Assembly: GCA_030248225.1 (NCBI GenBank)
Contig: JASANE010016008.1
Coordinates: forward strand, 1-64,000
Origin: Trileptium ribeirensis
Lineage: Eukaryota > Nematoda > Enoplea > Enoplida > Thoracostomopsidae
DNA length: 64,000 bases
Direction: 5' to 3'
Every line of letters starts with the position of its first letter. The first letter of the stretch is position 1. Shown here in pieces: positions 22,655 through 57,639 of the stretch. Below the pieces are notes generated by a model that was not told where the DNA came from, made no database searches, and worked only from the letters and a program-made list of their open reading frames with translations. A program made the translations under genes and the position numbers.

Positions 22655-23556
22655 ATTAACACAAAATCGGACTAGCATTGATGTAGTCTGAAAGCTTTAT
22701 AACAAAACCGTTGTTATCCGTTACGGGGTGTGAATGCCTCTTATCGGAACACAAAATCGGACTAGCTTTGATGTAGTCTGAAGGCTTTATAACAAAACCG
22801 TTGTTATCCGTTACGGGGTGTGAATGCCTCTTATCGGAACACAAAATCGGACTAGCTTTGATGTAGTCTGAAGGCTTTATAACAAAACCGTTGTTATCCG
22901 TTACGGGGTGTGAATGCCTCTTATCGGAACACAAAATCGGACTAGCTTTGATGTAGTCTGAAAGCTTTATAACAAAACCGTTGTTATCCGTTGTGAATGC
23001 CTCTTATCGGAACACAAAATCGGACTAGCTTTGATGTAGTCTGAAGGCTTTATAACAAAACCGTTGTTATCCGTTACGGGGTGTGAATGTCTCTTATCGG
23101 AACACAAAATCGGACTAGCTTTGATGTAGTCTGAAAGCTTTATAACAAAACCGTTGTTATCCGTTACGGGGTGTGAATGCCTCTTATCGGAACACAAAAT
23201 CGGACTAGCTTTGATGTAGTCTGAAGGCTTTATAACAAAACCGTTGTTATCCGTTACGGGGTGTGAATGCCTCTTATCGGAACACAAAATCGGACTAGCT
23301 TTGATGTAGTCTGAAGGCTTTATAACAAAACCGTTGTTATCCGTTACGGGGTGTGAATGCCTCTTATCGGAACACAAAATCGGACTAGCTTTGATGTAGT
23401 CTGAAGGCTTTATAACAAAACCGTTGTTATCCGTTACGGGGTGTGAATGCTTCTTATCGGAACACAAAATCGGACTAGCTTTGATGTAGTCTGAAAGCTT
23501 TATAACAAAACCGTTGTTATCCGTTACGGGGTGTGAATGCCTCTTATCGGAACACA
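22655..23556. repeat. 90-bp tandem repeat, about ten copies
   Basis: Unit begins AACACAAAATCGGACTAGC and ends GAATGCCTCTTATCGG. Copies start near 22659, 22749, 22839, 22929, 23012, 23102, 23192, 23282, 23372 and 23462. The copy at 22929 lacks 8 bp (ACGGGGTG), which breaks the otherwise open minus-strand frame of 30-residue repeats (CSDKRHSHPVTDNNGFVIK core). The 205-codon minus ORF at 22967-23584 and the 92-codon one at 22656-22934 are the two halves. A repeat-protein gene is possible but less likely than a minisatellite that happens to be open. Confidence 0.95.
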
Positions 23557-25194
23557 GGGTTAATGAATACTGAATGATATGCAATCCAAATAGACTAGAT
23601 AATAAGCGTTCCGTGGTACCCGCTGCGATGACAGTGGTGGCCTTATAAGGATCACGGAAAAGAATAGATTATTTCTAAATTTTCCCACCGACACCCACAT
23701 TACTTCTGAGACTTATTGACGTTCCCAATCAAGAAGTGCTATACTAAATTTCATGGTTCTGGTTCAGCACAAGGAACAATGGTAATTCTTCGAAGAAATA
23801 GTGAGACAGTTTATCGGAAATATGCGTACAGTGTCAACGTCTGGTAATTTAATGCTGCTTGTTTGGAAAGGATACACATCAAGAAAGATATATACCCATT
23901 TTAGGAGTTTAGCGGCGAAGTTGGCATCCATAAATGGGAATAATGAAAAATTATAACAACCAGGTGCGTAGGAGGAATTGCTTTGTTTTTAGTGTTTTTT
24001 GGACCCAATTGCTCTTTAACATCGCCTATCAATAAAGCAATCTCAATAAATCAATAAACATAGCAGCTTTATCGAAATCGTGTCAAATAGCAACTAAGAA
24101 TAGACGAACAAGGACTCATCGGTAAAATTTAACGGATAATCTATGCTGTCGTACTTCAGACGTTTGAGCATTAAGCAAATATCAGGTCATTATATTATGG
24201 AAAGGATTGATAACCCACCGGTTACAGAAAATCATATACAGATAAGAAATCCTCACTTAATCAGAGTTTTGGTAAGGGCTCTGTAAATTCATTTTCGTAT
24301 AAGATGGATCAATCAAATTTATTGTGAAATAATTTTTGTACTTACCTGGACTCAGCTTCATACGCGGTTGCCGTGCAATAAAAACCATCGCCTGGTTAAC
24401 TTATTTCCCTTAAAAAATTCAGTCTAATAATAAATACATAACTATTATAGTACAGGCCGACCTTAATGTTGAGAGTTTTCCTCGAATCGATCCTTAAAAA
24501 CAACATTTACCTTCGATGTGATACCAGGGGTAAATTCCATTACGTTTTTTGATGCCCGAAAATTCATCGCTAAATAGGTTTGAAAAAAAAATAAGGCACC
24601 ATTTGTGTAAAGCGGACAGATCCTTTTTAATGTTTATACTTGGTTTGCACAACATGTTGCAATTTGCAATAATAATTGACAGAGTCAGGCATGAAAGGGT
24701 TAATAATGCTACTATGAAGTTTTTGTTAGGAAAAACAAAAGTAAAACTCTTTCAATTATTTCTACCCTAACTAAACCTAATTTTTCAAAATCGAGCTTTT
24801 GTACTACATTTATAAAATACGAAGTCTTGCTTAACGTACTTTAATACAGTTATAGTTATCCATGATATATCCCCGTTGATTCTGATATTTTAGATAGCGG
24901 AATACCGTAAAATATTTCAACAAATATTAATTTTCATTTCAATAACTTAAAATGATTGGCAAGTAGTAGAGATGACCTGTTCTAACAATAATCTAAATGA
25001 AACAAATATTGGTACGTCAAATTTTTCACAATAAAAACGAATCGGCAAAACTATAACCAGATTACAACATGAAAGACCTGAAAAGAACTATGAAATGAAG
25101 CAATAATTTGCGCGTTGACAGTATTGGCCAGAACAAGCCTTCTAATACAATAAAACCGAAAACAACGACCGATGCTTCGGAATCACTAAACACA
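23557..25194. other. No gene recognised; probable upstream region of the BarH gene
   Basis: 1.6 kb of AT-rich sequence with no convincing exon. Any promoter or 5' untranslated exon of the homeobox gene would lie here, but I see no distinctive element. Confidence 0.4.
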
Positions 25195-32193: not shown

Positions 32194-35101
32194 CATTGGC
32201 GCAAATCTGCTATGGACTTTGGGGGGGGGTCAAAGTAAATGCCAGACTATTCATAATAGAAATTATTCCAGCGTTCTCCTGTCACTTGATGAGAAGTCCA
32301 ATATGTCTGAATTTTTTTCTAACTATCTGCAATATGATATACACTCTTTCCCTTTTCACGAAAATAATCAAGCCCACCTGTATGAGAAAATAATTCAATG
32401 TCCATTGTTCGTCAATTCAATTCGGTTGTCCCCTCTAGACTTCAAATTCACATCAAAAATGTATTTTTCCTTATGTCACTTTTTGAGATGAATTCAGCAG
32501 AAATTTGGCTGCCGTCGATGCTATCCAAGCGGTCTTGATGACAATGGCAGACAGCAAAGTTGTTCAGCCGGCGCTGTCCCATAGTTGATCGCAACCATGT
32601 TTTTAGACGACGCAGCGCACTAAAGCTGCGCTCGGCTTCAGCGGAACATGCCGGAATAACAAGACATAAACGAACCAAACGCTCTACTTGAAAAAACATT
32701 CTTCGGACCTCAGGCGTAAATTCTTTCAAAGTTATCATTGCTCCAGCTACGTCGGTGTAATTGTATTGCTGACGGAACATTTCCAGTTGAGACTCAAGCT
32801 GGTAGTCGAATTCTGGTTACAAGGATAAGCTAGCATTCAATTTTCCCTTGAGTAATGCCGATTCCAAATCTCGGTAACTTGTGAGATCCTTTTGATCGAA
32901 TCTAGATTTCAAGTTGAAGAATGCGGAGTCTAGCAGGGCATAGTACTGCTGCCGATAATATGATTCGGCTGATTCGTGATGAAACGCCGTACTAGGGTCA
33001 GAGAAGCGAGCTGGAGGTCGACGACGCCGTGGCACAAGAATTGGTTGAAGATTCATGTCAGCGACTTGTCTCTCTGTATCGTTAAAGATGATTTTAAAAG
33101 CATCCGTTGAACGTTTCATGGTCAACGCCTGACGAACAACCTCAACGGCTGAGAGCATTTCTGCCACCGTTTGATTTCGTCCTTGCATGGCATTATTCAA
33201 ATTTTCGAGCGGTTCCATAACCGACCGTGCCATAATGAGCCCTAGCAGGCTAGTTCCGTTTTCAAACCTCGCTAGCAGGCCACGGCACCTTGAAGCAGTG
33301 TTTCCATCTGAGACAGAGCTCATTGTTTCCAGAGGTTCGCAAATACCACTGTACGTTTTGAGCACTTGTACTACCGCTGGAGTGCGCACAGACCAGCGTG
33401 TTGGACACAGAGGTCTGAGCACTAAAGAAGAAGTGTTGAGTTGGGACGCAATAGCCGTAAATGTTGCACGCATTTTAACGCTATGAGAAAATAAGCTTCC
33501 AAGTTCGTTGACCAAACCTAAGCAATCAAATATGAAAGGAGATTGTTCCATAATTTCTTGAACAACGAGATTGACGCAATGGGCGCCGCAATGAACATAC
33601 ATAGCTAACGGTTGCACTTCTTTAATGCGTGCCTGAGCACCGGAGTATGCTCCACTCATATTCGCAGCGCCATCATATGTCTGACCGCGTAACTTATCGG
33701 TAGACAAGTTGAGTCGAATCATAACGTCCAATATTGCTTTCGATAATGTCTGTGCAGTCGAGTCGGGAACACTATAGAATCCAATGAACTCTTCATGGAC
33801 ACCAAAATCATCATCTACAAATCTTAAACACACACTCTCCTGCTCGTCACCCGAATCATCATCTACAAATCTTAAACACACACTCTCCTGCTCGTCACCC
33901 GAGCAATCTTGCGTGCCGTCTACAATGATTGCAAACGTTTTGTCTGCGATTTCGTTTCTGATTTGTCGTAAGACAGCATCTTAAAGCATGGAAATTATTT
34001 CATTTTGACAAGACCAGCTAGTAAAGTTGGTTTTCTTAGTTAACCATGAAGTCAGGAGAGGATCATCCTGAGCTCTTAGCTTTAGTAGCTGAATATAGTT
34101 ACCTTCGTCGTTATCATGGCCACGAAAAGCTAGGCCTTGTCTAGATAAGAACTGAATGGATGATACGAGCTTTTTCAGGCACACTTTGGCCTCAGCTCTG
34201 CTAGATTGAAGCTGCGCAGACAATAGATTGTCGATTGGGTTATTTGCTGTTGTAGTTGCTGAACACTGAAACGATGGCACTCGCTTTTTTCGTGCTTTTG
34301 AAATTTCTTCAGTGCTTTTTTCCAATTTTTGAATCCTGCAGTCGCAAATGCTGGCTCCGCTTTGGTGGCTAGATTCGATAAATTCAGCGAAGTGGCCTTA
34401 GAACAGTAAAAGCAGAGCACACCTTTAGAGGCCTGGTGATAGTGAAGCCAACTGTGCTTCGAATACCAAGCTGTTTGAAAAGTTAAATTTTTTGGCTTTC
34501 CATTAACTGTGATAATCTGCTGATCATAAAAATCATCAGTTGGCTGGTGGGGTTCTGTATATTGCGGAGAAATCGAAGCTGGTTCATCTGCTCCTGATGT
34601 GGAGTGAGTTTCTGTAGTGATATCGGTTTCAGCACTAGTAGATGGTTGTTGATGTTGCTTCTCTAAATCGTGGCGAGGCCGCTTTTGTGCTCCAGTCGAT
34701 TTTGTTAAAATTCTAGCTGATGAAGTAGAATGTTCGCTTGAATCCGAGGTTTCAGTTTCTATTTTCCGTTTAAAATATATATCAAGAGTGAACATTATAT
34801 CCTGATAATATATAACTTCCAATCTCACACTGATATATTTCTGAAATGAAAACAAATCGTTAAGCAAATTTTAGGAACGATAACAGATCAAGTATAGATT
34901 CTCTCAACATACGATTAGGGACCAGAATAGATCGTGGTTTTCGACGTCTTTCTTAGAAGTTGAATTGTAGGTTTTCATCACTCTTTCGTTATAAAGTGTT
35001 CAGTGCTCTAAAACGACAGCAAAAGACGAGATTTCGGAAATTTGGCGCAATTTATTGGGGGGGTCCGGACCCCCCCGACCCCCCCGGGATTTGCGCCTAT
35101 G
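32194..35101 (-). mobile_element. hAT-superfamily DNA transposon, inactivated
   Basis: About 2.9 kb. The terminal inverted repeats are CATTGGCGCAAATC at 32194 and, read inward from the right end, CATAGGCGCAAATC at 35101, each followed internally by a long G run, so the right end shows a C-rich block on the plus strand. The transposase gene lies on the minus strand and is broken (see its entry). An 11-bp sequence GATATGCGACC directly follows the right terminus (35102-35112) and also occurs at 32170-32180, but 13 bp away from the left terminus. It may be the remnant of an 8-bp target duplication with extra bases inserted on the left. Confidence 0.85.
32448..34795 (-). pseudogene. hAT transposase pseudogene (TTF zinc finger, DUF4371, hATC dimerisation)
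   Basis: Read from the probable start at 34795. The N-terminal region is Ser/Thr-rich with RKRPRHD-like basic residues. A TTF-type zinc finger follows (SWLHYHQASKGVLCFYCSKA, then EKSECHRF), then the DUF4371 catalytic part with IIVDGTQDCSG, TYDGAANMSG and HCGAHCVNLV, and finally the hATC region (CSAEAERSFSALRRLKTWLR). Damage: a frameshift near 34200-34300 between the zinc finger and the next segment, a TAA at 33981-33983, and another TAA at 32817-32819. A 48-bp in-frame tandem duplication at about 33794-33901 repeats SGDEQESVCLRFVDDD right after the first catalytic Asp. This is a ZMYM/TTF-like hAT lineage by domain make-up. The copy cannot produce full-length transposase. Confidence 0.9.
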
Positions 35102-45382: not shown

Positions 45383-48079
45383 GCATAAACTTTTTAAAGT
45401 AATGTATCTAAGTAAAATTCAATCATTGCTACCAACCCAACGGTCTCAGCGCACCATCTAGTATCCTGAACAGCAGTGTAAATAACCCAATATGGTACAA
45501 GATCGTAAGTGCAATATTAAACTCTAGTCATTAAACTCTAGTCAGTTTTGAATAAACAGCAAGTTTAATATGATAATCAGTTTATATAATTCTGTATTAG
45601 CTTAGTTAAAAATATAAACAGAAACGCGGTCTCACATGCACAAAGCATAGTTTTGTTTGAAGTTTCTTTACTTATGTTATGCCCAAACATTATTAGAATT
45701 AGAAAATATTTATCTTTGAGTTTCAACAAAGACAAATCACTCAAAAGTTAATATACTAATTGCCGGTATATGTCTTTGCACAGTTTGTTTAGGTCCTTTG
45801 TAACACAGGCGCAACTTTCAACTAGAACGTTCAAAACAAGCTAAAAAGTTTAAAGTACAAAAACCATTCACCCACCTCAGGGCAGAGCACAGAAAAATGG
45901 GGGTAAAGATGCACCACAAACACTACATCAAGACGAGTTAAAGTAAAGCGTATATTTTAAGTTAAATATACTTAATCGATCTTTAATCTCTGGTTTTTGC
46001 ATTTATAAAATGTACTAGTTATTTGAATTTAGGCTCTTAACTCGGCTCGGCTTACAGACAGCTCGGCGCGGTTCGGCTTTCCGAAACCTTTTATAAAGCA
46101 AAAACACAATTATAACAACCGCCGACAGCAAGAAGGGCCGAGATTAAATCAAAAGCTATAAAAAACAATGTATAGATCCTTTGGTGGTTTCTATATTACG
46201 TTTCGCTTTCTCTAATGTTATTAAATGTCAAACTTATATTATCAGGAGCCTAGGGGCCGAGAAGAGCCTGCCTTTTAATGGAACGGCCAAGCAGAACCGG
46301 GCATTGTTCAGGAAAATCCCGCTCTTTCTCACCTCTACATTATACTCTCCAACGTTTTTAGTTCTTGAGGCTTCGCTCGCTTGGATAAGAATTTTCGAAG
46401 TGTTGAGAGATGCAGATTAGTTGTAGCTTTACCTTACCATGTGTTCCCGTTCCGAAAGAGGATTGAATAATAACGACCGAGACAAAACTCGAACAGATAA
46501 AAATACTAAAACACATTAAGGCTGAAATGATCTATGACAACTTGCCTGGATTGGTAATATTAACAGCTAAAATTCTTGTATTCGTCGAAACGCATGATGC
46601 AGAGTTGGACAGGCCGCAATGTCACCTAAAAACTACCTCTAAACTTGCGAATTTTTAAATTATCATTTAACTATCGTAAATTGCGCTTGTAACATTAAAA
46701 AAATCGTAGTGAAAATACCGAAGTATTACAAAAAATTAAGAGCTAATTTAGTTACTATGCTAGCCAATAATGTATAGAACAGCTTCTTATTCCTACGCTA
46801 AATGCTAATTTGACAAATAAAGCTGGAAACTAGGTAAAATAGTATATATTCTGTTTTAAAATCCGATACCAAGATTCAGTTAGTACAGCGTAGTTCGTTA
46901 AATTACTTAATGCCTTTTACAGCACTATGCAAATGTCGTTTTGCGAATTTATCCCTATGGTTGACAGAAGTTGGATCCAAAAGTTTAAACAACACTTTTA
47001 CCATTCGTACAGGATTGCGTAATGACAAAAAAGGCTAGTTTTATATTTGGCAATCGGAAATCACGCAATATTAATGACAAAACTAGTCGGCCCCAGAGCA
47101 AATAATCATTACTCGATTTTGGCAAACAACAAAGTTTATTTTTCACCACCATCATACTGGATGGGTGTACATTGAATGTATAGGGTATTTAACATCATAC
47201 ATGTGGTTTTATACGAAATGCATCACTAAAATGCCTCAACTGGTTTTGCTGTGTTACACTATTTCTATTTAACAAGCCAATGTTTCGTGCAAAATGACAC
47301 ATTGTATACCTGTAACATGTAAAATTTTGATGTAGTAACGCCACCAGCATAATCCCTTCATTATTTGAAAGACAACTAGCAAAAAACTGATTGCAATATA
47401 ACAAGCGAAATCTCGAAATGAAATTGAAAAACAACCAAATCTTATGTATGATATTGCTTTGTAAACTAATATACTAACGGTTCAAACTTTTTGTCACGAC
47501 GAGGAATGATCGCGTTACCCTAGAGCATTATTTATTAAGCAGAAATTTTTAAAGTCCATGTGGGTTTTTTAATGCTGTCACTAAGTTTTTTATTTTAAAG
47601 GAGTTAAATGAGATGCATGGAATCATTCAATAGTCTGTGGTTGGTTTCGATTTTATTCTTTGATGAAAATCGCAATTTTCGAGTTGCAGTGGTAATTTTC
47701 GCGCTACGCTTGTCACGGCGGTTCACGAAACGTCTGTCACAAGCATACTTATGTGCAAAACATTTTCCAAAACATTTATTGGAGTTACCCATGGGTAGTA
47801 AAAACTTACAAGAAACATGATAAATGTAAGCATTAATTATCTGAGTCGAATGGTTAAAACCAGCTAGATTTTGCTGTGGGGTTTAACGAGCTAAGAACGA
47901 TTGCTATAACGAGATATAGACGATAATTTTCTGTGTTCCTTTTTCTGCATTATTCAACTTAGATCGTCATTGCGTTACGAAACGTGTACAAAATTATCCT
48001 TGCAGCAAGAATTTTTTTCGAAAATTTTCAGTACCAAAGGTAACCTCGAAAACTGTGCCATAAAGTTTCCAATTTCAGT
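45383..48079. other. No gene recognised
   Basis: 2.7 kb of AT-rich sequence upstream of the BEL/Pao element. ORFs present are short, unconserved or antisense pairs. Confidence 0.4.
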
Positions 48080-48407
48080 TGTGGTGACACGTCACCAGCC
48101 CCGTTTTATTATCGTGATATGCACGGTGTTTTGCATATCGTGAACTGTAGCTACGTTGCATATGTGTGTTTGCGATTATGTTTTTCATACGGCTGCTTCT
48201 ACTCGGTTTTTTCGTCAATCTTGTTAGATTAGTGTTTATGTTCAAAATAAATGTTTTTCTGATTTTACTAAGGCCTAGTCGTAGTTCAGAGAGACGTCTC
48301 ACGGTTCAAAAATGATTAGGCGACCTTCATTATAACTGGCGTTATTCACAATAAATTTATTCCATTTATTCAATATAACGTACCTTAACCCATCCCGTGG
48401 CGTGACA
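48080..48407 (+). repeat. 5' LTR of the BEL/Pao element
   Basis: 328 bp, TG...CA, starting TGTGGTGACACGTCACC and ending GTGGCGTGACA. The start holds the palindrome GGTGACACGTCACC, and the last 11 bp partly mirror it. AATAAA at 48246-48251 is the likely polyadenylation signal in the LTR. It also carries a duplicated GATATGCA/GCATATCG inverted pair at 48116-48140. Confidence 0.93.
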
Positions 48408-48425
48408 TGGTGCCGCAAGCCTGGA
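48408..48425 (+). other. Primer-binding site
   Basis: TGGTGCCGCAAGCCTGGA directly abuts the 5' LTR. It begins TGG, complementary to the CCA end of a tRNA, as expected for a reverse-transcription primer site. The tRNA species cannot be named by eye. Confidence 0.6.
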
Positions 48426-48859: not shown

Positions 48860-51800
48860 ATGTCCAAAGACCAGTCAACAATGTCCAAAGAGGTCAAGAA
48901 GCTTGTTAATCAACGGAAGGGATATTTGGGTAATGTCAGCAAGCATTTGAAAAAAAAATTGAACAACTTTTCGATGCGACGCTCAACGAAGAATACGCGG
49001 ATGAAATTCGCGTTTCCACGCAAATGCTTAGTGAATATCTGCAAAAATTAGAGGAACTAAGTTCAAAAATTCTCGATAATTTAGACACTGATGAAGAGCT
49101 TGAAAAAGAAGCTCTCGACTCTGCGGCAACTTCTGAACGGGTATTAATTACACTCAAAAATGCGGAACAAAAATTGGACAAATTCTATTCAAACTTGAGA
49201 GATAGTCAAAAGGATGAAGTTGGTTCACAAGCATCATCCTCCTCTAAAAAAGCTGTCACCAAGCTGCCGAAACTAGAAATTAACCCCTTCAGTGGTGATG
49301 CTATTGAGTGGCAAAGTTTTTGGGACACTTTTCAGTCTACCATAGACAACAGGAATGACCTGGAGGAAATCGATAAACTGAAATATCTGAAAAGCTTTCT
49401 TTCTGGTGACGCTCTTGCTGTGATTGAAGGTTTCCGGACGACTTCTGCAAACTATACCACCATCGTTGATACACTAAAAGAACGATTTGGAAATCCAGAA
49501 ATTGCTATCCACGCCCACTTCGAAAAATTGTTGGCTCTTCCATCCTGTCAAGCTGAAGGCGGGAAACTGCAACATGTTTACGACGAATGCGAAAAGCATA
49601 TTAGAAGCCTTGTTGCTCTTGGATTGAAGGAAGAAACCTTTGGCAAAGTTTTTTCTCCCATCATCCTTTCAAAGCTACCTCACGGAATACGGATACAGCT
49701 GTGTCGTAATAACGGTTCTCAACCGTGGGAGCTTGGACGTCTTCGACAACTGATGCGTGATGAAATTTGCGCCCGCGAAATGAGTAACCGTTTCGCCGAT
49801 GCTGGAGCGTCAACCATCCGTTCAAATCAAGCGAACAAAAAATCAAAACTGTATCCACCATCAGTAGCTACATTTACTCGCCAGATGGAGCGGAAAACCA
49901 AAATAGTTTGCAGTTTTTGCAGCAATAGTCACTTTGCTGACCGATGCAATATCTACACAACAGTAGAACAGCGAAAATCCAGACTTGACGGTCGTTGCCT
50001 CCGATGCTTAGCAACTGGCCACCGATACCGGGATTGTAAAAAATTAAACGTTTGTTTCTATTGCAAAAAGAATACCCATCATAGCAGTCTTTGTTATGAC
50101 AAGTTCGGGAGTTCCAGTAAACCGGGTCCCAACAGTCAGCCATCAAATCGAATGAATGGAGTAGCAAAATCAGTCGAAAATGGAGGATCAACGTTACTAA
50201 AAACGGGACAGCATGTTCAAATGCAAACAGCAACAGTACACTTTGAATCAGCAAATATTAACACTCGCGTGTTCTTAGACGGCGGAAGTTCCAGGTCGTA
50301 CATTACGGAGCGCCTTGCAACTGCGTTGAATGTCGTTCCCAGCGGGGAAGAAATACTCACATCAGCAAAATTTGGAGATCGTCGACGACGAACTGAAACT
50401 TTCAAGCGAACAATCGTTGAACTCGCGACACGTGAAGGGACAATATCGATTCAGGCGCTCATCACACAACATATTTGCTGTCCGATTCAAAAGTACCCAG
50501 TATCACAAGTAAACAATCCAGTACTCCAAGTAATTCCTTTGGCAGATTCATTAGTGAGCGAAGTTGAGCGGATTGAAATCGATATACTCGTGGGCCAAGA
50601 CTACTATTACGACCTTGTCGGTACTGAACGACTATCACTCAACAATGGAATGTACCTCGTTGAATCAAAGTTCGGATACCTCCTATCCGGACTCGTTCCC
50701 ACAATGGATTCTGAAGCTTATGATTCGTCAATAAGTATGTTGCAGTTGTACAACAGCGTGGAAGAACAATTCGCAAAATTTTGGTCTCTCGAAGATATTG
50801 GAGTGAAAGATATTCCTTATGACAAGGATGATGATATTGCCCTGCAACATTTCCATTCTACGGTACGTTTCTCCCCTTCGGAAGGACGATATGAGGTTAA
50901 GTGGCCCTGGAAATCGTCGTATCCAGAACTACCCACTAACTATGGTCTCGCTGCAGGTTGTCTGCGTTCTCTCGTCGAGCGACTTAAGTCAAAACCAGAT
51001 GTGATGTCACTATATGACGCAACGATACAGGATCAGATCGAAAAACGTGTGATTGAGGAAGTTTATTCAACCGATAGGAAAAACAAAGTGCATTATATCC
51101 CGCACCACCCAGTGATCCGGAAAGACAAATCAACGACAAAATTGCGCGTAGTATACAATGCCTCTGCTAAAAGCGGAAAAGATCAGCCAAGCCTTAACGA
51201 CTGCCTTTTGCGAGGCCCAGTTTTTTTAGCCGATCTGTGTGGAATGCTAATGCGCTTTCGGCTACATGCGATTGGCATATGTTGCGATATCGAAAAAGCT
51301 TTTCTGCAGATTCAGTTGCAAGAATCAGAACGCGATTGTACCCGCTTCTTGTGGTTAAAAGATATCACGAAGCCTGTTTCAAAATCCAATCTAATCACTT
51401 ACCGATTTTGTCGCGTGCCATTTGGATTTGTTTCGAATCCTTTTTTATTGCAAGCTTGCGTTCGATACCACTTAACTCAGCAAAATTGTTCGGTTGCTTC
51501 GGATATAGCGAATAACATCTACATGGACAATGTTATTACTGGTGTCCATACAATCAAGAAGGCCATTGAATATTATGAGAAAGCTAAAACAGTCTTCAAT
51601 AAAGTGTCTATGAACCTTTGTGAATGGTACACAAATAGTCCACAATTGAGATCAATGATCCGCTCAAACGACCATGGAAAAGATAACCACCCCAAGGTAC
51701 TTGGAATGGATTGGAATACTCAAACCGACACGCTCACATGTGTCATGCACAAATCAGCTGACAATACAAGTCTTGTCACTAAACGATCAATGTTTCAAGC

Positions 51801-54195
51801 CTTATCAAGCCTATTTGATCCATGTGGCTTGTTTGCCCCCGTTTCTGTTCGTGGAAAAATACTCATGCAACAACTTTGGGCGGACAAAATCGGGTGGGAT
51901 GATGAAGTCTTGGACAAACATGCGAAAGATTTTCGAGATATTATGACCGATTTGTCAAAAATAAACAGCATCGAAATAGCTCGTATAATATGTGAAGCGT
52001 GTGCATTGGATAACTCTAGTTATAACGAAATCCACTGCTTCTGTGATGCGTCGAAAAAAGTATATGCTGCCGTATTGTATTTACGAACACAAACAGGTGC
52101 AAACGTATGCACCAGTCTCATCTTCTCGAAAACGCGATTGGCGCCTATGAAGAAAATCTCACTGCCTCGCCTTGAGCTAATGGCGGTTCTTATTGGCGCT
52201 CGAATGGCAAATTATGTCATAAACGAGCTTGCAATTACGATAAAAAGAACAGTGGTCTGGTCGGATTCCAAATGTGTGCTTCACTGGATTCACGGTGATA
52301 AGCTATTAACGACGTTCGTCCAAAATCGCGTGAATGAAATAAAGCAGCACAAATTTAACTTTAGATATGTGCCCACGACCATAAATCCAGCGGACATGCC
52401 CACGCGTGGGGTGTCGATAGATGACATAGCGCATTCGTGCATTTGGTGGAAAGGTCCTCAATTCCTTCTACTGTCGGAAGGAATGTGGCCTGAAAATCTG
52501 TTTCACATGGAACCAGTTGTACCGGAGTTGGAACTAAAGCCTGAAGTGGCACTGGCAGTTGTTGCCACACCACCATTAGGAATTGGTAGCGTTATTGATA
52601 TTACTCGATATTCATCCATTGAAAGGCTTCATCGCGTCACTGCATGGTTGCTCCGGTTTATCCAAAACTGTCGATTGAAATTGAACTCCGATACTTGTCT
52701 AACAGCCAAAGAAATCGATGAAGTCAAAACAAGATGGATTATCAACGTTCAGAAACAATCATTAGCGCAAACACGTGACTTATATAAGCATCTTTTTCGC
52801 TTTGGAATAGAAACAGATAATTTTGGTGTAATTCGGTGCCGTGGCCGTCTGGACAATTCAAGTCTTCCAACCACCGACCTGAATCCTATATGGCTGCCAA
52901 AAAATCATCAACTAACGACGTTGGTTATTATCCAATGTCACGAAAAACTGTTTCACGCTGGAGTTCGACACACTCTAGCACAGCTTCGAACCGAATACTG
53001 GATCCCACAAGGACGATCCCAGGTCGAAAGGGTGCTCCGGCAATGCATCATCTGTCGAAAAGCAACCGGAGGACCATTCCGAATGCCTAATAGTCCACCA
53101 CTTCCGTCTTTTCGGGTCAGTCGTACCGACCCTTTCTCTACGATTGGTGTGGATTATCTCGGTCCACTGCTCGTTCGACCTGACACGAATCAAGATGGGA
53201 CGGGACAAGTTATCAAAGTGTGGATCGTCTTATTCACTTGTGCCGTTATCCGAGCAGTACACCTAGAAGTGGTAACCGGATGTACGGCGGAGGAATTTCT
53301 CCTTAGTTTTCGTCGTTTCATTTCACTTTACGGCATTCCAAAGGTTGTTGTGTCCGATAATGCAAAATACTTCAAATCTTCCGCTGCTTTTCTGACCTTT
53401 ATCTTTCAGACTTCTAGATTTCGTGACTTTTGTTCCACAAATTCCATTTCTTGGAAAAACATTCCGTCACTTGCGCCCTGGATGGGTGGCTTTTATGAAC
53501 GTCTCATAGGATCGGTCAAAAATTCTCTTCGTAAGGCTCTTCAAAAACGATGTCTGCGTCTAACCCAGCTCCAAACACTGACATTTGAAGTTGCAGCGAT
53601 CGTTAATTCCCGGCCTCTTGTCTCGTCAAACCTGGATGTGGGAGAAATAGCGCTCACTCCCGCCCATTTTCTTGCTAAAGTTGGGCGTGTTAGCGCACTA
53701 CCATCCATTGAGGTTGAAGAATCTTCATTTGATCAATCTAATAGGTCTAAACTTCTGCTTCAAACGTGGCTTAAAGGCCAAAAGCTGTTAGATCAGTTTT
53801 GGGTTTCTTGGCATAAGGAATATTTGGTTAGCCTTCGAGATATACCAAGAGTGACCTTGAACAGCAGAAATGTTAGCCATATTCCCGTAAATCCAGGAGT
53901 TGTTGTATTAGTTAAAGAACCAACCCCACGAGCTTGCTGGCGAATAGCCAAGGTGGTTGAAAATCACGTCGGAGCCGACGGCGAAGTGAGGTCTGCTACA
54001 GTTCGATTGGGTAACGGTCGAACCATTACACGTCCTTTGAAGCTCCTATATCCAATTGAAGACAGTGGTACGGGAGACCATGTGGCACCAGACACAGTTT
54101 CCACCCGGTCTAGTAAGCCGCAGCGCAAACCAGTCACAAAAGCAAGACTGGCTATCCGTCAGCAAGCGCAGTCAGTCGAAAACTGTGACGATTAA
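48860..54195 (+). CDS. BEL/Pao Gag-Pol polyprotein
   Basis: The continuous open frame is 49024-54195 (1723 codons). The likelier initiation codon is 48860, in a different frame that reads into the Gag N-terminus and meets an A9 run at 48950-48958, after which the long frame continues. Residue numbers follow the 49024 ATG. Gag capsid-like DUF1759 is at about 80-230, with three zinc knuckles at about 296-355 (CSFCSNSHFADRC, CLRCLATGHRYRDC, CFYCKKNTHHSSLC). The protease motif FLDGGSSRSYI has Asp419. RT has CCDIEKAF near 755 and YMDN at 833-836. RNase H runs from about 1002, with PRLELM and VVWSDSKC. Integrase has its H2C2 finger (HEKLFHAGVRH to CIIC) from about 1306 and catalytic Asp1377, Asp1445 and Glu1492. 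A DUF5641-type C-terminus ends the protein. All domains are open and the catalytic acids are present. Confidence 0.93.
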
Positions 54196-54295: not shown

Positions 54296-55444
54296 ATGCC
54301 AGTCTATGTTGATCCCACTCACCCGCTTTCCCGATTTCACCTGTTTGATCCAATTAAACTGCACGGAATTGAGTTCACATCGATTGAAGCAATTTTTGGC
54401 TACTTGATGCTGCTTCAACATGACATGCTGGACGAAGCCGAAATGATGCTCCACACAACCTCGGTCCTTCAGCACCCTAACGCTATCTACGGTTGGATCC
54501 GAAATCTTTTCGAGTTTTCCAACACCAAAATCAATCCTTCATGGCGATTTAAAGCTCCAGAAACCTATCTTCGCATTATGTGGGACCTTATAAAACACGG
54601 GAACAATCCATTCTACAACGAAATGGTTCGATTGTGCGACGAAGACATGACACATCTATCCTTTTGTGTGCCGTCAGGCAATTGTTTTGTGTGGGGTAGC
54701 GGTCTTCGATTGTCACAGGCACAGGAGACAAATGCACCATACCCTGGTCAAAACTTGTGGGGAAAACTGTTGAAAAAGCTGCTGCGAAAATGGCACCGAG
54801 ATGAATTCAAAGTCCGACATTCAGCTAAACGGATGTTCTTACAGCCTGTGCTTCCGCTATCAATATACACAAAAACTGTGCTGGTGCTGGCTGACAGCCA
54901 AATGCGTCAGGTCATGACAGTCAGCGGAGGCGAAGTAATTGCCATTTCAGGCGGTCAATACAATACCATAGCTGATACCATTCGCCAACGCCAGCTGAAT
55001 TTGTGCGATTATCGCTACGTCATTGTTAGTTGCGGAGTCAACGACGCTCGCCGTTCTCCAAGCGCGTGGAAGGGATCGTGGCAGCCCCTTCGCGACACGT
55101 TACGTTCTGTCACCAATCAGCATTCGACAATAGTTCTTCTCAACACAGCTCTCGATATTCCAACTGCCAGAAATGTGCGACGTCATAACAGATGGATTTG
55201 TCAATCAGTCCGATCGGAGTTCGCACGCAGCGATAATTTCAAAATCGTTTCGTGGACCGGTAGAAAATCCCGCCCATTCTTGCTGAACAACGGTCAAATT
55301 GACCCACGGTTCTTCTTTCAAGACAATTTTCACGTCAATCATAGTGGTTTTCGTCTGCTGTGGGGCCGATGGTGCAAAAAGCTACCTGGTCTGCGTGCTA
55401 TTCCAGTAGTCCTATCGCCAAACCTCTACCCACATGGTCACCAC
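54296..55444 (+). CDS. NADAR-SGNH hydrolase fusion encoded by the BEL/Pao element
   Basis: A 383-codon ORF in the env position, 100 bp after Gag-Pol and inside the LTRs. Residues about 10-168 resemble NADAR (YbiA/DUF1768): FTSIEAIFGYLML with Glu31 where the family has a catalytic Glu, a conserved-type Trp region at 83-96, VWGSGL at 132-137, and QNLWGKLLKKLLRKW at 152-166. NADAR enzymes hydrolyse N-glycosidic bonds in riboflavin intermediates or ADP-ribosylated bases. Residues about 193-365 resemble an SGNH/GDSL hydrolase: LADSQ (Ser201), a glycine-rich turn SGGQ (Gly219-220), SCGVNDARR (Asn249) and DNFHVNHSG (Asp343, His346), the full SGNH set. I see no signal peptide, membrane segment or furin-like site, so it is not an envelope protein. 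The NADAR assignment is less certain than the SGNH one. No translated-looking overlap with Pol exists, so how it is expressed is unknown. Confidence 0.85.
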
Positions 55445-55856
55445 TAATTTGCCCGATTAACACAAGCACTTGGACAATAAATCATTCTTCAGTGCCAGCA
55501 GATTGTTGCTGCACAAGTGTATCAATAAAATTTGGATGAACAACGTCGTCTGAAGGGTGGATGGTTTGAACTGGACTCAGAGTCATCAACCGTGCTGTGA
55601 GTTAACATTACTTTATATTTAGCGCCAGCAGTGATTTGCTTGCGAATATTAGCTCAAATGGAATGAAAATGAAGTTTAATTTTGATTGCTTTACTTATTT
55701 TGTAGCGCCAGCAGTGATTTGCTGCGCATCTTCATTATGTCGCCACGAATATGAAACTGAATTTGAATTTTGACTTTCAATCCGATTAAAGTATCCATAT
55801 AAATATTCACATTTTTGTGTGAATTACGTACCATTTCCATTCAAACTCTGGGGGAG
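55445..55856 (+). promoter_or_regulatory. 3' untranslated region of the BEL/Pao element with hairpin repeats and polypurine tract
   Basis: Contains three copies of a GCCAGCAG...TTGCTG motif (about 55493, 55623 and 55706), the last two sharing TAGCGCCAGCAGTGATTTGC. AATAAA occurs at 55480. The polypurine tract GGGGGAG sits at 55850-55856, immediately before the 3' LTR, and would prime plus-strand synthesis. Confidence 0.5.
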
Positions 55857-56184
55857 TGTGGTGACACGTCACCAGCCCCGTTTTATTATCGTGATATGCA
55901 CGGTGTTTTGCATATCGTGAACTGTAGCTACGTTGCATATGTGTGTTTGCGATTATGTTTTTCATACAGCTGCTTCTACTCGGTTTTTTCGTCAACCTTG
56001 TTAGATTAGTGTTTATGTTCAAAATAAATGTTTTTCTGATTTTACTAAGGCCTAGTCGTAGTTCAGAGAGACGTCTCACGGTTCAAAAATGATTAGGCGA
56101 CCTTCATTATAACTGGCGTTATTCACAATAAATTTATTCCATTTATTCAATATAACGTACCTTAACCCATCCCGTGGCGTGACA
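55857..56184 (+). repeat. 3' LTR of the BEL/Pao element
   Basis: 328 bp, the same length as the 5' LTR. I see two substitutions relative to it (CATACAGCTGC for CATACGGCTGC, and GTCAACCTTG for GTCAATCTTG). Confidence 0.93.
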
Positions 56185-57639
56185 TATATTATATCTTCAT
56201 TGTGTATCGTTAAAGACATTATTCTTAATAACTCATCTAGATACTTTGCAATCGAAAATCTAACGAAGAATTTTGCATATGTGCATGAATATTACTCTAA
56301 AAAATTGCGGAATTAAGATACTATAGGAGGTTAAAAATATAGAAACAATGATAGGACCGTTTAATGTAAAGCATTGCGACCACTGAAACGACTATGACGA
56401 TGTTGCCACTAACAATAAACATACCTAATATTTTAACTGGCAACTAGCTCAGTAGACAAAATATATTCAACATTATTAAGATCATGTCAACGTGTCGAGG
56501 TAATTTTGACGCTTTATTATTACTAAACATTATTATCAAAATAATATATTGCCATCGGATTTATCATTAGTCACGCGTAGACCAACGACTTTTTTATTGT
56601 TAGCAAACGTGAAAAGAAGAGCATATATCTATTTAGTCAAACGTCTAATTCTTATTTTGACACAGTGTATGAAGAACACGTCACAAACAGCAAGCATATA
56701 CTGATTTAGCTTTACATGGTGTAATGTGTGATGCAGTCTGTGTGCGATACCGCATAATAAGAGCCAGTGTTATACATTTCGCTGCACTTATTTGAAGCAA
56801 TAATCACTGCATGACGCCATCTCGAGCGAATAAAATAAACTCAAGATCTACTTTTATACAGCAAAACTTATGGAGATAGCTGAGTTTGGTTTAAAAGGAA
56901 GACATCACAACAGTTTGTATCGTTGCAGCTTATATCGATCGATCAAAGAATGCCTCCAGGCACTTAGCTAAGCCGGTGCATGTGACTCGAGAAAACTATT
57001 GCTCCGTTAATGCTCTGTCTACGCATAAACAGGTCACCTACATTGGTTTTGTTGTCGTAAGGTTTCGGATAAAGACTTGAAAATTGCATGGACACACCGG
57101 AGATTTAGCTGAGCACCAGTGGGTTTAAGATTCTTTTCGGCATGCTTGTAGGTTAGCGTATGTACCCCTATTTGTGGCTAATACTACACTTAAATAACCA
57201 AAACTTTACCAAAACCTTTTTCAATCCTACATTTACTACATTTTCAATCCGTTTTAACAAATTTTCATTACCACCACCAATTTTAATCGTATATGTTACC
57301 ATAGTCCCTCTGGTTAATCTGACTATCTTATAATAATATATTTTCGCCAGGCTTCCACATTAAGGTCTTTAAATATTTCACAGCGTACCTCTCCGCTGCT
57401 TTGCGGGAAAGAGTTTATTAACCCAAAAGCTGGGGCCACCACTTATAACTGGTGGTTTTAAAGGACTTGAGCACCTTAAGTAGTCAGGAGGTGCTTACAA
57501 TGCCGTATTATACCGCAAGACCATAATGGGGGAGTTCGCTCTCGGCCTTCCAATTCAGACCTAAATTATCACTTTGGACATGAGCAGACTTCGACTACCA
57601 CCTCAGTTATACCTACTAAGGCCTTTAATGCCCATTTTA
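56185..57639. other. No gene recognised
   Basis: AT-rich. It includes an inverted pair CCACCACTTATAACTGGTGG at 57438-57457, and shorter hairpins possibly belonging to the 5' region of the retroelement that follows. Confidence 0.4.

Follow-up and report, generated by a model that had tools for sequence, protein, structure and literature searches.

Results

A third gene in the env position of a BEL/Pao element

The 64,000-nucleotide stretch of Trileptium ribeirensis DNA analysed here (contig JASANE010016008.1, positions 1 to 64,000; hereafter the window) holds, on its forward strand, a BEL/Pao retrotransposon of about 8.1 kb, its two 328-bp long terminal repeats (LTRs) included, and behind the gag-pol gene of this element lies a third open reading frame (ORF3) that encodes a NADAR-SGNH fusion protein. 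The 5′ LTR (48080..48407) and the 3′ LTR (55857..56184) are direct repeats with 2/328 differences. The gag-pol ORF (49024..54195, 1723 amino acids) matches the Pfam families DUF1759, DUF1758, RVT_1, Peptidase_A17 (E 1.6e-49), Integrase_H2C2 and DUF5641, and the BEL/Pao domain set of Pao peptidase A17, DUF1759, reverse transcriptase and integrase is complete in it. ORF3 (54296..55447 with its stop codon, 383 amino acids) starts 100 bp after the gag-pol ORF, runs without an internal stop and is followed by the 3′ LTR. It consists of a NADAR-derived N-terminal domain (residues 1-175, 54296..54820) and an SGNH (GDSL) hydrolase domain (residues 190-383, 54863..55444). A preliminary description of this DNA had recognised the intact ORF between Pol and the 3′ LTR of a BEL/Pao element as well as S201, G219/220, N249, D343, H346 and three NADAR-like motifs, all of which are present as it described. 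Its reading of a NADAR-SGNH fusion in the env position is borne out by profile-profile matches to NADAR, obtained with profiles of 19 and 31 rows, and by the SGNH fold and residues. Below, P0001 is the protein of the window's ORF3, rows are members of its family, and L numbers denote such members or stretches of the same genome.

The highest 19-residue hydropathy of the ORF3 protein is 1.41, where the usual threshold for a transmembrane segment is about 1.6; no transmembrane stretch is present, and an envelope glycoprotein was rejected for this reason. ORF3 shares its place in the element with the env-like third genes of Belpaoviridae (PMC8742986, PMC3118150) and differs from them in its enzyme-type domains and in having no transmembrane stretch. 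An enzyme could still stand in for the glycoprotein and move particles across membranes. The env position would fit such a role, as would the GDSL ORF3s of the bdelloid Vesta elements, for which Rodriguez et al. suggest host-membrane penetration (PMC5408684), but the missing transmembrane stretch and the occurrence of ORF3 beside the polymerase-like ORF of a different element (see below) speak against it, and we regard this explanation as unlikely.

ORF3 recurs behind BEL/Pao integrases throughout the genome

Searches of the 687-Mb genome, in which the lists comprise the best-scored matches, returned 107 scored matches for P0001 and 107 for a second family member, and merging them gave at least 147 distinct loci, fragments and broken copies included. 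The listed matches of P0001 are 27-40% identical to it, except for the other copy of the window's element (98%). Because at least 147 homologous loci exist, a one-off capture was ruled out.

The context of the 147 ORF3 loci was compared with 90 scored integrase matches and 127 scored peptidase/RNase H matches, and an upstream module was counted if an integrase lay within 3 kb, or a peptidase/RNase H within 6 kb, on the same strand. A listed BEL pol module was found upstream in 73/147 loci. At control positions within 6 kb, a module lay downstream on the same strand in 0/147 and on the opposite strand in 2. Seen from the integrases, ORF3 lies 31-752 bp downstream of 52 of the 90 best-scored ones. 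Eight of the 38 integrases without a listed ORF3 (the best-ranked of the 38, apart from C16421) were read directly, and an ORF3 homologue followed in 8/8, frameshifted in 6/8. The gene is thus kept in other elements rather than absent from them. Against this stands the observation that 69/147 ORF3 loci have no listed context. The best reading is that a BEL/Pao lineage of this genome has ORF3 as its standard third gene, in the env position.

Relatives outside this genome were few in the collections searched. P0001 alone found none among 5.8 billion proteins, in collections that seem poor in eukaryotic elements, and the 19-row profile found one in the same set (P0123, 425 amino acids, on a 1744-base contig, 28% identity over 97%). 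Viral contigs yielded relatives of neither ORF3 nor Pol.

The SGNH half is probably an active esterase

In P0001, PF13472 is matched at E 1.5e-5 over residues 215-353 with 26 bits, below the curated cut-off of 32.9. The same family is matched by 14/19 family members at E ≤ 1, and the relative L039 reaches the curated threshold (35.9 bits). Across 31 family rows the predicted catalytic residues are strongly kept: the predicted nucleophile S201 (codon 54896..54898) is Ser in 29/31, the Gly is present in 30/31, the predicted oxyanion-hole N249 (55040..55042) is Asn in 31/31, Asp343 (55322-55324) is Asp in 27/31 and the predicted catalytic H346 (55331..55333) is His in 30/31. In fold comparison, 47 of the 50 listed matches are esterase, lipase, acyltransferase or thioesterase entries. 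Plain Foldseek with the first P0001 model gave no match at E ≤ 0.001; GTPases and others appear next to SGNH enzymes in its rows.

Two points weigh against an esterase throughout the family: the nucleophile Ser is replaced by Asn in the near-identical rows L024 and L025, and some members (L041 = L011, L062, L063) have no GDSL match in Pfam. A single-sequence resemblance to nitrosuccinate lyase/CreD over residues ~223-293 (NCBIfam E 0.00023, PDB E 0.00067) was discounted, being short, local and at odds with the SGNH blocks. Taken by its residues and predicted fold, the SGNH half is probably an active esterase. To this extent, of fold and residue conservation, the deacylating enzyme of the preliminary description is supported.

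A zinc-finger/PolB-like element carries the same gene

At five loci (C6954, C8312, C19757, C9064 and C10326) an ORF3 homologue lies 401-758 bp behind an ORF with motifs like those of B-family polymerases (PolB). These five homologues are the best matches to P0001 after the element's own two copies. The ORFs of C6954 and C10326 have C2H2 zinc fingers, and the other three are cut before that end, by the contig or the stretch read. A tblastn search for BEL modules in stretches L034-L044 found none. Near relatives of the PolB-linked ORF3s (C2957, C4584, C12842, C1560, C635) all sit at contig ends, with their neighbourhood beyond the contig. The polymerase-like ORFs hold FDANSLY, KLIGNNYYG and MDTDSLY, which we take to be motifs A, B and C of B-family polymerases. 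PF03175 is matched weakly in L036 (E 0.0022), the L034 and L038 pieces have no Pfam polymerase match, and the polymerase-like ORFs have no PDB match.

The polymerase-like ORFs belong to a large family with matches on 59 contigs (examples are L034:16-5043, L038:393-5312 and L036:533-2698), and fingers occur in both of the long ones read. A listed ORF3 is present on 5 of the 59 contigs, and since all five are among the closest relatives of the query, one PolB-like subfamily has ORF3. Two other close PolB relatives (C18306, 97%; C14805, 77%) have no listed ORF3. In an ORF3 tree of 21 rows, the PolB group (four rows) is a clade (100/100) nested in a larger set of 14 rows (100/99), whose remaining members are P0001, seven further BEL-borne rows and two without known context; two BEL-borne rows fall outside this set. 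One of the four PolB-group rows, L009, was placed in the group by similarity, its contig context being unreadable. Because the PolB clade nests among BEL-borne rows, the tree, whose root rests on one long-branched outgroup and which does not settle the sister of P0001, favours a BEL element as the source from which the PolB-like element captured ORF3.

Both halves are constrained between lineages

The ratio of non-synonymous to synonymous substitution (dN/dS) depends on the distance compared. For L015/L021, which are BEL-borne, it is 0.095 (N half 0.122, C half 0.057), and the integrase of this pair gives 0.11. For L005/L009, from the PolB group, it is 0.086 (N half 0.051, C half 0.116). These values come with a high between-lineage dS (1.2 and 1.8), and saturation was reached in four additional pairs. 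In the two pairs measured, both halves of ORF3 are constrained about as strongly as the integrase. In six further close pairs the ratio lies between 0.28 and 0.69, mostly on the basis of few changes. Weighing against constraint, the two full-length copies of the window's element show none, with 6 non-synonymous and 0 synonymous changes in ORF3 and a pol dN/dS of 0.86. The constraint at issue in the preliminary description is thus seen between lineages and not between these two copies, which look neutral.

The N-terminal half probably descends from NADAR and lacks hydrolase residues

The NADAR signal of single sequences is weak. PF08719 matches P0001 at E 0.24 over residues 132-162, missing the threshold (12.1 bits against a curated 35.1), and 3/19 members match it at E ≤ 1, the best at 0.021. 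The phage family phrog_1017 matches P0001 at E 0.13 over residues 11-174 and likewise 3/19 family members, the best at 0.081; it is the NADAR family of PHROG, since YbiA and four NADARs from phages match it with E values from 6.5e-36 to 7.2e-50. Profiles gave a clearer answer. With hhalign, a 19-row N-domain profile scored 34.0 (P 8.4e-5) against YbiA and nine phage NADARs, aligning 136 of 156 profile columns, whereas the C domain scored 13.6 against the same NADAR profile and the noise reached 19.4, both as the best of 150 column shuffles and as the best of 29 unrelated Pol slices. A 31-row profile scored 35.5. The six PolB-group rows by themselves scored 27.8 (best of 60 shuffles 20.2), but with 26 columns aligned.

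Several results weigh against the assignment. An 11-row profile that excludes P0001 and the PolB group (ten of its rows are BEL-borne, one is of unknown context) scored 19.4 over 132 columns, within noise (best of 60 shuffles 22.0), and the 19-row profile had no significant match among PDB chains (best E 0.079). AlphaFold models were poor, with whole-model means of the predicted local distance difference test of 46.3 and 46.1 (the second model set comprising P0001 and P0123 only) and the N domain worst. The N domain of the low-confidence model has two strands, five helices, two strands and one helix, an order that a NADAR fold would be expected to show. Among the listed fold-comparison and Foldseek rows there is no NADAR structure; these comparisons barely probed the N domain. 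Homology of the N domain to NADAR, in degenerate form, is supported by profile comparison, though not by every profile subset.

In NADARs that have been tested, three residues matter: a Glu, a Lys seven positions further along and, close to the WG motif, an acid at the E125/D171 position (PMC11543638). Of the 29 rows with a residue at the Glu position (E31), 25 have Glu. The Lys position holds Lys in 0/30 rows and Met, Cys, Leu, Gln, Val or Ile instead, and the acid at the second site is present in single rows and not conserved. Further residues of the domain are kept: W133 in 29/31, G136 in 30/31, and N153 and G156 in 31/31. ORF3 therefore resembles the YbiA/NADAR hydrolases in its collinearity, its Glu and its WxxG and GxNxxG motifs, and differs from them in lacking a conserved catalytic Lys and second acid and in its fusion to SGNH (PMC11543638).

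These residues bear on the suggestion in the preliminary description that the protein undoes ADP-ribosylation, which they do not support. In the fuller form of that idea, a counter-defence, the NADAR half would strip ADP-ribose-type marks off the element's nucleic acid and the SGNH half a host-placed acyl mark. Both domain types belong to such enzymes, NADARs undo guanine ADP-ribosylation (PMC11543638), most rows retain the NADAR-site Glu, both halves are constrained, and a gene found in two element classes fits a defence-countering module. The Lys missing from every one of the 30 rows and the unconserved acid at the E125/D171 position speak against it, and we hold it improbable. An active ADP-ribosyl hydrolase was rejected on the same two residues. 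The N domain is constrained, yet a canonical ADP-ribosyl hydrolase role is unlikely to judge from its residues; because the essential Lys is absent and the second acid not conserved, we read the domain as non-hydrolytic.

NADAR domains also occur in trans-splicing (PMC9303266), and the N-terminal half could be an RNA or ribonucleoprotein (RNP) adaptor like the SNA-3 NADAR domains of nematode trans-splicing, with the SGNH half mainly a binding platform. The ORF3 protein is basic (K+R 46, D+E 29), as would suit an adaptor, but a binding platform would not need such strong upkeep of SGNH catalytic residues, and we give this explanation as little credence as counter-defence.

Other features of the element and the window

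A putative primer-binding site follows the 5′ LTR directly (48408..48425, assigned by position only), and the bases after the LTR at locus G000:C69 resemble it. At 48860-49024 a gag-start-like frame is shifted relative to the gag-pol ORF just downstream, with an A run between them. A putative polypurine tract, read from the sequence, precedes the 3′ LTR (55846..55856), and between the ORF3 stop and this LTR a short sequence, approximately GCGCCAGCAG, occurs in three similar copies (55491, 55622, 55705). BEL/Pao insertions are expected to carry a short target-site duplication. None is present at either full-length copy (window flanks 48055-48079 and 56185-56209; G000:C10160). A genome search with the LTR gave nine matches: two each at the full-length elements of the window and C10160, four further copies (89-95%) and one fragment (71%). 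Among the four further LTRs examined, three are solo LTRs flanked by 5-bp duplications (ATTTT, ATTAA, TATGG) and the fourth runs into internal sequence. LTR and element lengths lie within the ranges given for Belpaoviridae (LTRs 0.2-1.2 kb, elements 4.2-10 kb; PMC8742986), whose BEL/Pao elements are metazoan (PMC8742986). Named sources of Pol relatives with the same domains include Plectus, bivalves, Sycon and a few bacterial metagenome-assembled genomes, which are probably misbinned. Elsewhere in the window, on the reverse strand, two ORFs at 32817-34867 resemble, by eye, pieces of a zinc-finger/hAT-type transposase, and an ORF at 22967-23584 is built of tandem ~30-residue repeats.

Discussion

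The third gene of this BEL/Pao lineage has a recurring place, a two-domain architecture, conserved residues and a record of selection, and it is present beside the polymerase-like ORF of another element. For its catalysis, substrate and role, we infer an env-position accessory esterase with a NADAR-derived, non-hydrolytic module, traded between element classes and engaged in membrane or acyl chemistry, a proposal that we think has an even chance of being right. The NADAR-derived domain, its hydrolase activity probably lost, would bind a nucleotide-like ligand, RNA or a protein partner, and the SGNH esterase would act at membranes or on an acylated partner, in line with what has been proposed for the esterase of LINE (long interspersed nuclear element) ORF1. 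In this way the esterase may aid in positioning or releasing particles or RNPs of the element. It counts against the proposal that the membrane role is borrowed from a different esterase capture. That model, ZfL2-1 ORF1p, is likewise an element-borne SGNH protein with a Ser/Asp/His triad and an Asn/Gly oxyanion hole; its esterase is active and binds acidic phospholipids (PMC3905857). It differs in being a LINE ORF1 with a coiled coil and, in the accessible text of that report, no described NADAR (PMC3905857), and the likeness noted here is one of features.

Other elements offer partial parallels. The bdelloid Vesta LTR elements have an SGNH enzyme as third ORF with intact catalytic residues, an ORF type found also with Athena/Terminons; they form one of the retrovirus-like clades described, and the text available describes no NADAR and sharing among retroelements, none with a DNA-polymerase element (PMC5408684). 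Ectocarpus Gypsy Pol and oyster Tx1 LINE ORF1 are cases in which retrotransposons took up NADAR; there NADAR stands at the Pol N-terminus or in a LINE ORF1 and not in a separate env-position ORF, and the portion of the source at hand describes no SGNH fusion (PMC12477816). A review of viral NAD (nicotinamide adenine dinucleotide)/ADP-ribose systems does not contain the words retrotransposon, retroelement, transposon or Polinton (PMC9503650). SGNH ORF3s and NADAR domains in transposons are thus already in print, while their fusion, its BEL/Pao home and its sharing between element classes were not found in searches of an open-access library.

That some retrotransposons encode an enzyme in a third ORF is known, but not why. 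Here, a two-domain protein stands behind dozens of BEL/Pao integrases, with integrase-like constraint in the tested pair, and also accompanies a polymerase-like ORF. Occurrence in both element classes makes the question of role testable, since a need common to both would restrict the possible roles much further than would an env-like role in a single class. Tentatively, and with somewhat less than even confidence, we suggest that selfish elements share the NADAR-SGNH protein as a plug-in: it would be fixed throughout a BEL/Pao lineage, would have moved one or more times between that lineage and a zinc-finger/PolB-like DNA element, and would be selected in both because it acts on a host process that limits elements (a membrane, an acyl mark or a nucleotide signal). 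The findings further suggest that selection can retain a NADAR domain after its hydrolase residues are lost, and therefore that the domain may serve beyond the removal of ADP-ribose.
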